Source of the DNA: a virus
Virus record (IMG/VR): IMGVR_UViG_3300025151_000009
Coordinates: 1 to 35,584 of that record
Direction: 5' to 3' (one strand)
Length of the DNA stretch: 35,584 nt
Every line of letters begins with the position of its first letter. Position 1 is the stretch's first letter. The position numbers and the translations under genes are program-made. This document shows positions 2,212-35,584 of the stretch, piece after piece. The notes under the pieces were generated by a model. It worked only from the letters and a program-made list of their open reading frames with translations, had not been told where the DNA came from and searched no databases.

Positions 2212-2629
2212 CTAACTCTTCCTTGCTTGGAAACGGTATGTTTAGGCCGCGTTTTTCTGCCAAGTGCCTAATTATAACATTAGCCACCTCAGAAACCTCA
2301 TCAGTATTTAACGCCGATGTTCCCTTTTTCTCTGGGTACATTGCTAGCTGAACCTCACTCCATATAGCTGCCTTTACTCTTTCCATTGTCCAGGGCATCT
2401 CAATATAGTCGCCTGTAAGAAGGCTTTTGATCTGATACTCAAACCCTGCAGCATTGCACGCATCAGCTATCAAGCGGCAAAACTTATGTATAGCGTTGTT
2501 CTGTGTCACAGTGCGCTGCCTGCCTGTCTGCACTTTTACTGTACAGTATTTGTTTGCCATATAAATATCATTGAGCGCCCTGGTCGCTGCGCCGAATGAT
2601 GCATCGCTATTAATAATAATTGTTGTCAT
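2186..2629 (-). CDS. NinB-like recombination-associated protein, 147 aa
   Basis: Starts MTTIIINSDASFGAATRALN and contains RTVTQNNAIHKFCRLIADAC, TGDYIEMPWTMERVKAAIW and EVANVIIRHLAEKRGLNIPF. The R-T-x-x-Q-N-x-x-x-H pattern near the N-terminus, the E-x-P-W-T-x-x-x-V-K segment and the C-terminal R-H-L-x-E-K-x-G-x-x-x-P-F-P-S signature match a widespread phage family often labelled NinB (single-strand DNA binding, helping recombination). The ATG at 2629 overlaps the upstream stop as ATGA and has AGGAGAAAG before it, so it is preferred over the start at 2647. Family assignment is from memory of sequence patterns and is moderate. Confidence 0.6.
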   Translation of the reverse strand: MTTIIINSDASFGAATRALNDIYMANKYCTVKVQTGRQRTVTQNNAIHKFCRLIADACNAAGFEYQIKSLLTGDYIEMPWTMERVKAAIWSEVQLAMYPEKKGTSALNTDEVSEVANVIIRHLAEKRGLNIPFPSKEELDGYKERQR

Positions 2630-2910
2630 AACTTTCTCCTTAACCATTTTGCAGAAACAACTGACGAGTAGTCCTCAAAGATTAGCCAGGGACTGTTTTT
2701 ATTCCCTGCGTCTTTTCTTTTATCTCTAAGGTCCCAGTCAGTTACATATTCACGACCACCGAGCCTGGACTGCATGCAATTCTGCGAGACATTAGCCACA
2801 GCTGCATAGTCCTTGTATGTATATAATTCATCGCGCTTTAAGCCGCCTAAACCCTCTCCCTTGTAAACCAGATAAACCGTGCCAGCTTCTCTAGTAACTT
2901 TCCCTATCAT
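2626..2910 (-). CDS. Hypothetical protein, 94 aa
   Basis: MIGKVTREAGTVYLVYKGEG at the start, then ELYTYKDYAAVANVSQNCMQ and SRLGGREYVTDWDLRDKRKD. The middle (DYAAVANVSQNCMQSRLGG) reads like a small helix-turn-helix, so it may bind DNA, but this is not a confident family match. The ATG at 2910 overlaps the initiator stop as ATGA; an in-frame ATG at 2919 is also possible. It lies between the initiator and the NinB-like gene, tightly coupled on both sides. Confidence 0.65.
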   Translation of the reverse strand: MIGKVTREAGTVYLVYKGEGLGGLKRDELYTYKDYAAVANVSQNCMQSRLGGREYVTDWDLRDKRKDAGNKNSPWLIFEDYSSVVSAKWLRRKL

Positions 2911-3542
2911 TGCGCCCAACTCCTATCCGTTAGCTTATTTACAATGTCAGACTTTTTGAGGCTTGTTTCAGGCTTTTTATATTCGCGTGCAGCCCAATTA
3001 CGCACACAAGCTTTCCAGTCTTTCATTTTATTTCTACCAACCATCCAGCCGTTAGATTCATAATAACTGTACCAGCTGTATGCATTGACTGTGTAGTTTT
3101 GCTCTTTGATGTAATCGTAAACATCTTCAAGCAGTGGCGGTATTTCTTTAATATTAGATTTATTATTAGCCTGTATTATTCCCTTAGAACTTTCTTTCCT
3201 GGGGGTATCGCAATTTTTTTCCAGGGGGGCAGGAATATTTTTTCCAGGGGTCTGGAAATTATTTTCTACAATGTAGATTCTTCTTTCCTGTACCCGTTTA
3301 GTGCCTGTCTCATAAATCTCTTCACGTTTTATGTAACCAGCTTCTTCAAGCGCACCGAGCCAATTAGTGATAGACCTATTTTTGACGCTGTAAAGGTCCG
3401 CAAAGTGCGCATTTGTAGCCCAGCAATATCCACGCTCATTGCAAAGCGCAGTTATCTCGCCATATAAAAGTTTAGCGTTAGCTGGAATCCGATTGTCATA
3501 CCGTACTGTGGCCGGAATGATTGCATAGTACCCCGTATGCAT
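2907..3542 (-). CDS. Replication initiator (lambda O-like), 211 aa
   Basis: The N-terminal 75 residues form a winged-helix domain of the HTH_36 type: YYAIIPATVRYDNRIPANAK, then ATNAHFADLYSVKNRSITNW and LGALEEAGYIKRE. A low-complexity linker follows (about 95-130), then a C-terminal domain with WMVGRNKMKDWKACVRNWAA, as in phage O/DnaT-like initiators. Such proteins bind origin iterons and load the host helicase. The linker-coding DNA holds three 23-bp-spaced repeats next to an AT-rich stretch, the same arrangement as the lambda origin inside O. There is no phage DNA polymerase, so host replication proteins must be recruited. AGGAG is placed before ATG. It follows the repressor gene directly. 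Confidence 0.75.
   Translation of the reverse strand: MHTGYYAIIPATVRYDNRIPANAKLLYGEITALCNERGYCWATNAHFADLYSVKNRSITNWLGALEEAGYIKREEIYETGTKRVQERRIYIVENNFQTPGKNIPAPLEKNCDTPRKESSKGIIQANNKSNIKEIPPLLEDVYDYIKEQNYTVNAYSWYSYYESNGWMVGRNKMKDWKACVRNWAAREYKKPETSLKKSDIVNKLTDRSWAQ
3141..3263. other. Putative replication origin: three 23-bp iterons and AT-rich flank
   Basis: TTTCCTGGGG at 3195, TTTCCAGGGG at 3218 and TTTCCAGGGG at 3241 start exactly 23 bases apart, each followed by an A/T tract. The third ends in an inverted copy (TTTCCAG-GGGT-CTGGAAA, 3241-3258). Because 23 is not a multiple of three, each copy is read in a different frame of the initiator gene, so the repeat is a DNA signal and not a protein repeat. 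The segment 3141-3180 on the downstream side of the gene is strongly AT-rich and could be the unwinding element. This mirrors lambda ori within O. Confidence 0.7.
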
Positions 3543-3544
3543 TT

Positions 3545-3745
3545 TTATTCTCCTTCTTTGATTAATATTGATAGCCTAACACCAAATGCAACTGACAATT
3601 TTGTGAGTGTAGCCAGCGTTGGGTTTTGTGTTTTTAATGAAAGCGACAGCTGCGACTGAGTTATACCAGCTCTTTCAGCAATTTCTTGCTGTGTCCAGTT
3701 ATGCTCTGCTGCTAAACGCTTTACAGCTTTTCTTAGGTCAAACAT
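3545..3745 (-). CDS. Xre/Cro-CI-type HTH repressor, 66 aa
   Basis: A single HTH_3 domain: NWTQQEIAERAGITQSQLSL (helices 2-3) followed by NPTLATLTKLSVAFGVRLS. There is no C-terminal cleavage or dimerisation domain, so it is Cro-like in size rather than CI-like. It is divergently transcribed from the rightward early genes, with 124 bases of control DNA between that contain operator-like palindromes. It heads the leftward unit with the initiator only 2 bases downstream, so it likely controls its own and early rightward transcription. With no integrase in sight, it may serve lytic timing or exclusion rather than lysogeny. Confidence 0.85.
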   Translation of the reverse strand: MFDLRKAVKRLAAEHNWTQQEIAERAGITQSQLSLSLKTQNPTLATLTKLSVAFGVRLSILIKEGE

Positions 3746-3759
3746 AGTAGCTCCTTAGT

Positions 3760-3801
3760 TAGTGAAACTTAATATTAACACTACTAAATATTTATTGTAA
3801 A
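3760..3801 (-). promoter_or_regulatory. Leftward promoter and operator for repressor gene
   Basis: On the minus strand TTTACA (3801-3796), an 18-base spacer and TAATAT (3777-3772) make a plausible sigma-70 promoter. The -10 lies in the palindrome TTAATATTAA (3769-3778), and TAGTG/CACTA arms (3760-3764 and 3779-3783) flank it. This suggests repressor autoregulation. The assignment rests on pattern only. Confidence 0.55.
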
Positions 3802-3809
3802 GAAAATAA

Positions 3810-3845
3810 TAGTTTGCATATGTAAACTACATGTGTAAGAATACT
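3810..3845 (+). promoter_or_regulatory. Rightward early promoter with 20-bp operator palindrome
   Basis: TAGTTTGCATATGTAAACTA (3810-3829) is a palindrome with one mismatched pair: TAGTTT/AAACTA arms around CATATG. It covers a -35 candidate TTGCAT (3814-3819), with a weak -10 AAGAAT (3837-3842) 17 bases downstream. A bound HTH dimer here would block rightward transcription. The 20-bp size and symmetry suit an Xre-family dimer. Confidence 0.6.
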
Positions 3846-3869
3846 ACTTCACAACAAATGAGGTGATTT

Positions 3870-4049
3870 ATGGATTTTAATAATTTGACTGATTATGAGC
3901 GCGGTGAGTATGACGCACTGCATTCTTTTGAGGCGCAGCTTAACCAGCCTAGAGAATATTACTGGGGCTACGGCGATGCATATGCGCAAGAGCAAATAGC
4001 TGACGCAAACACAATAAAGCAAGAGGAGTTAATGTATGACTTGGGATAA
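3870..4049 (+). CDS. Small acidic hypothetical protein, 59 aa
   Basis: MDFNNLTDYERGEYDALHSF, then REYYWGYGDAYAQEQI, ending QEELMYDLG. It is acidic and rich in Tyr and Gln. It is the first gene of the rightward early block and has a good site (GAGGTG) before ATG. It overlaps the Rad52-like start by 14 bases. First-in-operon acidic small proteins of phages are often host-takeover or DNA-mimic factors, but nothing here proves that. Confidence 0.7.
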   Translation: MDFNNLTDYERGEYDALHSFEAQLNQPREYYWGYGDAYAQEQIADANTIKQEELMYDLG

Positions 4050-4431
4050 TATCAAAACGGGGCTGCGCGCCCCATTTAAGCCTACGCAGCTACGCTGGAG
4101 ACAGGGTAGAGCCGGCATGCAGTTAGCGTATATTGATGCACGTGATGTGGCTAACCGTTTAGATGAGGTTGTTGGTATAGAGAACTGGCAAGACAAATAC
4201 GAAGAGGTGGCTGGTCGTATGATCTGTTATCTATCTATACGCTGTGATGGCGAGTGGGTAACAAAGGCTGACGGTGCTGGCGACACAAATATTGAAGCCG
4301 AGAAGGGTGGTATTTCTGATGCGCTAAAACGCGCTGCACAGAAGTTTGGCATTGGCAGATACCTGTATTACCTGCCTAAGAATGCTTCGCCTGATAACCT
4401 ACCACGCTGGGCTGTTCCAAATGACTTATAG
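4036..4431 (+). CDS. Rad52/Rad22-family single-strand annealing protein, 131 aa
   Basis: Matches the short phage Rad52_Rad22 type: DVANRLDEVVGIENWQDKYE, GRMICYLSIRCDGEWVTKAD, GAGDTNIEAEKGGISDALKR and AAQKFGIGRYLYYLP. These cover the conserved core that binds single-stranded DNA and anneals complementary strands. It ends after the core, with no C-terminal Rad51-binding part, as is normal in phages. AGAGGAG precedes the ATG. It is followed at once by a PD-(D/E)XK nuclease and SSB, a typical two-component phage recombination block. In this genome it would support replication by recombination and end repair. Confidence 0.85.
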   Translation: MTWDNIKTGLRAPFKPTQLRWRQGRAGMQLAYIDARDVANRLDEVVGIENWQDKYEEVAGRMICYLSIRCDGEWVTKADGAGDTNIEAEKGGISDALKRAAQKFGIGRYLYYLPKNASPDNLPRWAVPNDL

Positions 4432-5182
4432 AGCAGAGTCGGGCCACTGGTATGATCAAGACGGCAACCCTGCCTACACGACTGTAGGTAAGAATGGTCA
4501 AGAAAGAAACACAACGCTGCGCGATGCAAGAAAGCACAACCTGGTTCCTAGTGTCACCACGATACTAGGAGTTGCAGCCAAGCCAGCTCTTGAAAACTGG
4601 AAGATAGATCAGGCGTTGTTGGCAGCAGCAACTATGCAGCAGCAAGCTAATGAGCCTATTGAGATGTTTATGGCTAGGGCTAAGATGGAGTCTAGACAGG
4701 CATCAAAGCAAGCAGCAGAAATCGGCACAGCAATACACGCTGACATAGAAAAAGGTTTTGTTAATGGTGTAGAGTCTGTAGCATACAATGCAGTCAGGGC
4801 TGAGTTAGACGAGCTTTTTCCCAAGACTGTGTGGTGCAGTGAGGCATCGTTTACTAGCCCACTAGGGTTTGGCGGCAAGATAGATTTGTGCAGCCTGGAC
4901 GGTGTTTTTGTGGACTTTAAAACTAAGGATGGCTTAAAAGGTAAGGACGCTAAGAAATTAGTTTACGATGAGCATGGCATGCAGCTAAGCGCGTATGCTT
5001 TAGGCTCTGATGTAGACAACCCAGTGAGAGTGTCTGTGTTCGTGGATAGGGCCGACCCTAGCATAACTCAGGTGTATATCTGGGATGAAGAATCTCACAA
5101 GAAACATGTTGAGATGTTTAAGGCGCTTCTAACTTTTTGGAAGCTTACTAAAAACTATGATCCTAGCGAGGATAAAAAATGA
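4421..5182 (+). CDS. PD-(D/E)XK exonuclease (RecB/Cas4-like), 253 aa
   Basis: Motifs fit the PD-(D/E)XK superfamily: GTAIHADIEKG at about 101-111, GGKIDL with D near 154, and FVDFKTKD with D165 and K167 by count, followed by KKLVYDEHGMQLSAYALG (the conserved Q-x-x-x-Y helix). The VPSVTTILG segment near the N-terminus is also typical of phage exonucleases of this group. It would degrade one strand to give the substrate for the Rad52-like annealing protein next door. The ATG at 4421 overlaps that gene by 11 bases; an in-frame upstream start at 4346 is embedded in the Rad52 gene and lacks a binding site. Confidence 0.85.
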   Translation: MTYRAESGHWYDQDGNPAYTTVGKNGQERNTTLRDARKHNLVPSVTTILGVAAKPALENWKIDQALLAAATMQQQANEPIEMFMARAKMESRQASKQAAEIGTAIHADIEKGFVNGVESVAYNAVRAELDELFPKTVWCSEASFTSPLGFGGKIDLCSLDGVFVDFKTKDGLKGKDAKKLVYDEHGMQLSAYALGSDVDNPVRVSVFVDRADPSITQVYIWDEESHKKHVEMFKALLTFWKLTKNYDPSEDKK

Positions 5183-5568
5183 GCATTAATTCAATAGTGT
5201 TTACAGGCAACTGCGGAGCTGATATGGAAATCCGCCATACCCCAAAAGGTGTTGCTATAGGAACTGTAAATGTGGCTGCAAAGTCAGGGTGGGGTGAAAA
5301 CCAAAAAACAACATGGGTGCGCTGCAAGCTATTTAAAGAGCGTGCAGAGAAGTTAGCCCCTATGCTAACAAAAGGAACCCCGGTAACAGTTATGGGTGAA
5401 TTTCAGTTAGAAGAGTGGACTGCAAAAGACGGCACACAAAAATCAGCATTAGCGTGCAATATAAACAGCATACAAATGCAAAGAAAAGAGCCTGCTGTGC
5501 AGCAAACTGCGCCGGTGCAGCAGCCTGCAAAAACTGATAATTTTTTAGATGACGATATTCCATTTTAG
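5179..5568 (+). CDS. ssb: Single-stranded DNA-binding protein, 129 aa
   Basis: OB-fold SSB: SINSIVFTGNCGADMEIRHT, then TTWVRCKLFKERAEKLAPML, KGTPVTVMGEFQLEEW and a Gln/Pro-rich linker. The C-terminus ends DDDIPF, the standard acidic tip by which bacterial SSBs recruit partners, so host replication enzymes may dock on it. It overlaps the nuclease stop (ATGA) and is shorter than E. coli SSB mainly in the linker. Part of the Rad52/nuclease/SSB recombination set. Confidence 0.92.
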   Translation: MSINSIVFTGNCGADMEIRHTPKGVAIGTVNVAAKSGWGENQKTTWVRCKLFKERAEKLAPMLTKGTPVTVMGEFQLEEWTAKDGTQKSALACNINSIQMQRKEPAVQQTAPVQQPAKTDNFLDDDIPF

Positions 5569-25972: not shown

Positions 25973-26407
25973 ATGTCAGGCGGTAAAGGCGGTGGTCAAA
26001 CCACTACAGCAGATATCCCAGATTGGGCAAAAGAGCCTACAAAGCGCAACTTAGCAAGAGCTGAGGCAGTGCAGCAAATTGGTTATCAGCCTTATATGGG
26101 TCCTGATTTAGCTGCATTTAACCCAACGCAAAGAGCAGCTATGCAAAGCACAATTGACTCTGCTGCTGCATTTGGCCTTGCAACCCCTGGTAAAGCCTTA
26201 GAGGGGCTAGCGGCTCCTACAGACTTTGGAAACGGGATGATGGGCTACAGCTCCTTCCCTATGTTCGAACAAGCTAGAAGTGAATTGGCGAAACGCAACC
26301 CGGAGCAACAAGCTCAATATGATGCGTTGTTTGGAAACGAAGTGGAAACTGATGGCGATCACATATCGTCATTCTACAACACAAAACTTGAAAGAATGTT
26401 TCACTAG
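25973..26407 (+). CDS. Virion-associated phage protein, 144 aa
   Basis: GGKGGGQTTTADIPDWAKEP, then TKRNLARAEAVQQIGYQPYM and PDLAAFNPTQRAAMQSTIDS. A conserved small protein in the ejection-protein cluster of such podoviruses, with the P-F/Y-M-G-x-D-x-A-A-F-N-P-x-Q pattern. It probably belongs to the interior virion. AAGGAG precedes the ATG. It may be a shortened relative of the next protein. Confidence 0.7.
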   Translation: MSGGKGGGQTTTADIPDWAKEPTKRNLARAEAVQQIGYQPYMGPDLAAFNPTQRAAMQSTIDSAAAFGLATPGKALEGLAAPTDFGNGMMGYSSFPMFEQARSELAKRNPEQQAQYDALFGNEVETDGDHISSFYNTKLERMFH

Positions 26408-35377: not shown

Positions 35378-35584
35378 ATGGCTAAGACAAAAGAAAGTGT
35401 AAGTTTTACTGATGACGCTATAGTTATAAAAACACAGCATGATGTTACTGATGATTTGCATAGAGCGCGCGTGTTGCGAGAGGCAGGCGCTGGCATAAAA
35501 GGCGACAAAAAATTGATTGGGTCTATACCCACATATCTAATCACTGAGTGGCTAAAAGAAGCTGGTATTGACCACAGTGACCAT
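35378..35584 (+). CDS. Small conserved phage protein, 5' part (crosses the circle join)
   Basis: Starts MAKTKESVSFTDDAIVIKTQ, then HDVTDDLHRARVLREAGAGI, and is cut by the window end at residue 69; it continues at base 1 and ends at 180 (95 aa in total). GGAG lies 7 bases before ATG. It follows the capsid terminator without an obvious promoter, so it may be expressed by read-through. No family recognised. Confidence 0.85.
   Translation, partial: MAKTKESVSFTDDAIVIKTQHDVTDDLHRARVLREAGAGIKGDKKLIGSIPTYLITEWLKEAGIDHSDH
35486..35584. repeat. 99-bp terminal redundancy, right copy
   Basis: Identical to bases 1-99 (see the left copy). It falls inside the gene that starts at 35378, so it marks assembly closure. 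Confidence 0.95.

Follow-up and report, generated by a model that had tools for sequence, protein, structure and literature searches.

A probable phage replication origin within an HTH_36 initiator gene, with dyad iterons matched to the recognition helix of the initiator

The DNA analyzed here, referred to as the window, is a 35,584-bp (35.6 kb) stretch of phage DNA whose bases 1–99 and 35486–35584 are identical (99 bp), and the record is therefore probably a complete or near-complete genome, circular or terminally redundant. On the minus strand, positions 2907–3542 hold a replication initiator gene encoding 211 amino acids, which consist of a winged helix-turn-helix (HTH), a disordered linker, and a helical C-terminal domain (Pfam, PHROG, and AlphaFold2). 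A Cro/CI-like HTH gene (3545–3745) lies directly upstream of the initiator gene and runs away from the Rad52-like, exonuclease, and SSB genes at 4036–5568, with divergent promoters probably located in the gap at 3746–3869. The cumulative GC skew, which the preliminary description had proposed to inspect for a switch, does have its minimum nearby, at 3592, but the direction of transcription flips at the same place, so the skew gives no independent support and was discarded as evidence of an origin. No RNA element with an Rfam match was found in 2600–4200. The genome has no match to DnaB or to a DnaC-like helicase loader (PF01695), and PHROG profiles revealed no loader gene among the neighbors of the initiator; the earlier statement that the phage lacks its own DNA polymerase holds for the families searched, A and B, neither of which has a match in the genome. 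DnaB/DnaC-like genes were likewise not found in twelve related contigs tested, some of which are possibly fragments, and a helicase or loader gene adjoins the initiator in several other HTH_36 phages.

The N-terminus of the initiator matches Pfam HTH_36 (PF13730; 1.5e-10, 41.2 bits against a gathering cut-off of 25), and the protein matches a PHROG replication initiation protein at 4e-27, while the O-like PHROG profiles match it only at 3e-8 and weaker. There is no match at E ≤ 10 to either Phage_rep_O (PF04492) or RepA_N (PF06970). The protein had been called O-like and the locus a copy of the lambda design; the layout does match that of lambda ori, but the protein is of the HTH_36 type and not of the Pfam family of lambda O. 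The AlphaFold2 model has a mean pLDDT of 80, with linker residues 97–131 below 50, and this predicted disordered linker coincides exactly with the location of the iterons. The winged-HTH DNA-binding domain covers residues 11–91 (3270–3512, minus strand), as judged from the predicted secondary structure and the HTH_36 match, and includes a predicted recognition helix at residues 55–68 (3339–3380, minus strand) that carries R56 and N60 and shares mutual information with the iteron arms. The closest PDB folds include RepA_N initiators, which have a winged HTH, and DnaD, all with weak E-values of 0.015–0.07, and a sequence search against PDB chains found no initiator for the window protein. The helical C-terminal domain (2928–3131, minus strand; helices at residues 138–205 in the model) has no Pfam match, and its motif GWxVGxxxMxDWK is kept in relatives. 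This domain would recruit the host helicase or primosome, possibly drawing in the helicase unaided, since the tested phages of the window clade show no helicase or loader.

Within the linker-coding part of the gene, an exact-match search of the window returns the decamer TTTCCWGGGG three times, at 3195, 3218, and 3241 (spacing 23 and 23 bp), and allowing up to one mismatch adds a single further site in the window, at 26184. The three cores had been described at these positions, each read in a different codon frame, and both points are borne out, the encoded peptides being TPGKN, PLEKN, and TPRKE. Each core is the left half plus the spacer of a larger unit, which reads on the gene strand as a C-run followed by GGAA-AAAATA-TTCC or, more generally, as a C-run followed by GGAA-N6-TTCC around an A-tract. 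Four such units, u0 to u3, lie on the minus strand at spacings of 22, 23, and 23 bp. The fourth unit, u0 (3251–3269; GTAGAAAATAATTTCCAGA), is located 22 bp upstream and has both half-sites (dyad at 3255–3266) without the upstream C-run; u1 (3230–3250; CCCCTGGAAAAAATATTCCTG) has a full dyad at 3233–3244 and holds the core at 3241; u2 (3206–3229; CCCCCCTGGAAAAAAATTGCGATA) retains the left half-site only and holds the core at 3218; and u3 (3182–3205; CCCCCAGGAAAGAAAGTTCTAAGG) has a full GAA/TTC dyad at 3187–3198 and holds the core at 3195. The pattern GAA-N6-TTC with at least four A in the loop occurs exactly three times on both strands of the genome, always in the linker, against about 0.8 expected by chance. 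An inverted arm had also been reported, and it is present (TTTCCAGACCCCTGGAAA on the gene strand), but the main dyad is centered on the A-tract and not on CCCC. A dyad centered on CCCC, as the inverted arm hinted, was considered and rejected, because family statistics place the main dyad 10.5 nt past the C-run. In the main family geometry complementary positions sum to 21 from the end of the C-run, with some genes, including that of the window, 2 nt closer; anchoring on the start of the C-run removes most of this difference for the window clade.

Just downstream of the iterons on the gene strand, the initiator gene reaches its highest AT content over 60 bp (70% AT) at positions 3123–3182, in agreement with the AT-rich stretch noted earlier. 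A candidate opening element at 3147–3181 (minus strand) contains three TAATAATACA-like copies on the same strand, namely GAATAATACA at 3172–3181, TAATAATAAA at 3159–3168, and TAATATTAAA at 3147–3156. Every copy has at least one mismatch; the first two, with one mismatch each, are the only matches in the genome within one mismatch of TAATAATACA. The first copy is in another codon frame than the second and third, and some relatives likewise have one copy that is out of frame with the rest.

Relatives were collected from annotated phages, viral contigs, and genome contigs to give 125 non-redundant genes that span Firmicutes, Bacteroidetes, Spirochaetes, Proteobacteria, and other groups, and tandem A-tract dyads occur in the same linker in most of them. 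The four nearest relatives (L003–L006; 75–76% amino-acid identity) preserve the 23-bp spacing to the base but differ in the central letters of the core, so that the conservation expected by the preliminary description is found for the spacing and not for the center of the core. The 14-mer AATTGCGATACCCC lies at the right half of u2 (3206–3229) in the window and, in these four phages, at the corresponding half of the first unit, and its shifted place suggests recombination or conversion between iterons. Strong linker self-repeats occur at lags of 22, 23, and 24 bp in 25, 25, and 57 of the 125 genes. A repeat of 24 bp is in frame, and the encoded peptides are similar in relatives, as would be the case if a repeated linker peptide were maintained at the protein level and the DNA likeness were a by-product. 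As the main cause this explanation is refuted, and it keeps a vanishingly small probability. The copies in the window lie in three frames and encode different peptides, and dyads occupy more than one codon frame in 34 of 58 genes with at least two full dyads. In addition, against shuffles that preserve the protein and the codons of each gene, the 125 linkers have a higher self-repeat score (18.0 vs 10.4, sd 0.2), more C-runs (356 vs 198, sd 10), and a higher dyad pairing rate (0.442 vs 0.296, sd 0.016). The iterons are thus selected as DNA, as had been proposed. The spacer may be a C-run or a G-run, both above the null (157 vs 59 and 55 vs 25); for example, a G-run replaces the C-run between dyads in some units of the linkers L175, L058, and L028. 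The A-tract lies on the coding strand in 99 dyads (A-rich loops) and on the other strand in 2 (T-rich loops), and the array therefore has a direction.

The AT-rich element is similarly widespread, with TAATAATACA (up to one mismatch) following the array in 113 of the 125 relatives. The linkers hold 264 copies, compared with 102 (sd 7) in synonymous shuffles and 3 elsewhere in the same genes, and the Asn codon is AAT in 100% of the codons within the motif but in 67% of those elsewhere. The two-part layout of dyads and AT element is common to the 125 relatives from many phyla and stands well above synonymous-codon shuffles. A literature text search for the motif returned only unrelated papers among the matches listed. 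Paired TnnT motifs are a target of DnaD on single-stranded DNA (PMC10201434), and TAATAAT holds two overlapping TnnT, a likeness that is drawn here as a parallel only.

The pairing of sites and protein was examined by comparing the dyad arms, which were called without use of the protein domain (6-base loop with at least three A, a setting chosen after the first genes were seen and left unchanged in the held-out test), with the residues of the domain. Among 77 clusters at <75% identity, the highest mutual information links residue 56 to arm position 3 (z 13.6) and residue 60 to arm position 1 (z 9.4), and both residues are on the recognition helix of the AlphaFold2 model. Across 114 clusters, G stands at arm position 3 in 50/50 of those with R or E at residue 56 but in 13/64 with other residues, and C stands at arm position 1 in 38/47 with R60 but in 5/67 with other residues; the two rules hold in each of the three codon frames, which further argues against a peptide repeat as the source of the pattern. 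In a held-out set of 41 new clusters, which share <75% identity with the 77-cluster set and with each other, R/E56 goes with G3 in 18/18 against 3/23 for others (Fisher p 8e-9), R60 with C1 in 16/20 against 2/21 (p 6e-6), and V56 with A3 in 6/7 against 8/34 (p 0.004). Both associations remain significant at <60% identity (28 clusters; residue 56 p 1e-4, residue 60 p 5e-6), while at <55% identity (12 clusters) the association persists for residue 60 (p 0.002) and is marginal for residue 56 (p 0.045). The code partly survives in shuffled linkers (61% and 41%, against 14% and 8% for other residues), since the linker peptide places some constraint on the DNA that encodes it. In the window, R56 and N60 accompany GGAA arms (G3 and A1), as the rules predict. 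Covariation between recognition-helix residues and dyad arms, the held-out clusters included, ties the sites and the initiator together, and the initiator of the window almost certainly binds these iteron sites.

The computations thus show site–protein pairing, selection at the DNA level, and a conserved AT-rich element that adjoins the array on a constant side, and on this sequence evidence the region 3147–3269 is very probably the replication origin of the phage, located where its own initiator gene encodes the linker, which supports the original proposal of a likely origin. Counting against this reading, one half-site of u2 has been lost, the AT copies are mismatched, and the core letters differ in the nearest relatives. 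The same covariation would be expected if the array were an operator at which the initiator represses or roadblocks transcription of its own gene while replication starts elsewhere, and a protein bound to sites within a transcribed gene could indeed block RNA polymerase. The sites nevertheless lie in the linker, far downstream of any start, the AT-rich element nearly always follows them (113/125 genes), the divergent promoter region at 3746–3869 has no full dyads, and the origins of lambda, RepA_N plasmids, and lactococcal phages are precedents for an origin at this place (PMC7466680; PMC5703833; PMC8965321), so that an operator is improbable. When cloned, the ori regions of lactococcal phages confer phage-encoded resistance in trans (PMC8965321), and the sites might by analogy bind the initiator mainly for copy control or superinfection exclusion by titration, with opening elsewhere; this is very improbable, since the conserved AT-rich element adjoins the array on one constant side and the A-tracts keep a fixed polarity, both of which suggest directional opening at this place.

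If the region acts as an origin, the lambda and RepA_N precedents suggest that dimers of the HTH_36 domain would bind the A-tract dyads u0, u1, and u3, and u2 weakly. R56 would read the G of each GGAA half-site and N60 would go with the innermost A, and the G:C tracts together with the 22–23-bp spacing may set the dimers in a regular array. By the same precedents, the loaded array would open the adjacent downstream AT-rich TAATAATACA-like element, and the C-terminal domain would then bring in the host replicative helicase and polymerase. Host enzymes are proposed because searches of the genome turned up no phage helicase, loader, or polymerase, and this last step is the least certain. Beyond the window, it is fairly probable that HTH_36 initiators of many phyla share one two-part origin in the DNA of their own linkers, in which residues 56 and 60 read the A-tract dyads by a simple, transferable code and the opening element TAATAATACA that comes next acts through its sequence and not just its AT content, being recognized, perhaps as a single strand, by the N-terminal domain that these initiators share or by some other conserved factor.

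An origin within the initiator gene, the layout of lambda and RepA_N, is already known; the family-wide anatomy and the recognition code were not found in the open-access literature, with an earlier description in a subscription journal being possible. To our knowledge, origins are known for few phages. Comparing more than a hundred related genes indicates which amino acids match which DNA letters and makes such origins readable from sequence alone. Should experiments bear out the code, the initiator gene of many phages and prophages, uncultured ones among them, would directly reveal both the origin and the specificity class to which it belongs, and if the shared two-part origin is real, the replication specificity of uncultured phages would become predictable from sequence. 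It also becomes testable why one AT-rich decamer persists across phyla despite differing C-terminal domains and hosts, a puzzle because intrinsic melting alone would need no fixed sequence.

Among known systems, phage lambda has its ori inside the initiator gene O, and O binds as dimers (PMC7466680). Like the window, lambda ori has four iterons (spacings 20, 24, and 23 bp) with A-rich-centered dyads in the linker of the initiator gene, in several codon frames, and an AT-rich stretch downstream. The two differ in that O belongs to Phage_rep_O and the window protein to HTH_36, the lambda arms are CCCTC/GAGGG around 5 nt and those of the window GGAA/TTCC around 6 nt, no TAATAATACA is seen in the lambda ori stretch, and the window has no adjacent loader gene by the PF01695 and PHROG searches. 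Similarly, the ori/Rep boxes of the RepA_N plasmid pSK41 are established inside rep (PMC5703833), and the RepA_N rep gene of pUSA03 holds four A-tract dyads at 23-bp intervals, which fall in codon phases 2, 1, 0, and 2; RepA_N proteins also share the winged-HTH fold and are among the best PDB matches. Unlike the window, the pUSA03 dyad is TGTC-AAAAG-GACA with a 5-nt loop, and its rep linker has neither a C-run spacer nor TAATAATACA. The pUSA03 Rep (L421:101-1060) is an ordinary RepA_N protein with 111 bits to PF06970, a family that the window protein does not match. A review lists pUSA03 with the PF13730 chimeric type (PMC5703833), yet the pUSA03 record examined matches RepA_N. In the lactococcal phages TP901-1 and Tuc2009, an origin within the initiator gene is proven, formed by direct repeats to which the initiator binds (PMC8965321). 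The Rep of TP901-1 matches HTH_36 at the borderline (24.5 bits, with a cut-off of 25), but the TP901-1/Tuc2009 repeats have a 15-bp period with no comparable A-tract dyad array and no TAATAATACA, and the C-terminal domains differ from that of the window. The nearest experimental support for an HTH_36 origin family is plasmid pPR9, which combines a Rep that has a PF13730 N-terminal domain with an origin region of its own and is both able to replicate and compatible with pSK41; like the window, it combines a phage-type HTH_36 domain with an origin region, and there they form a replicon with its own specificity (reviewed in PMC5703833). By analogy, the origin region of the window would work like lambda ori and the RepA_N origins, yet its initiator belongs to neither Pfam family.
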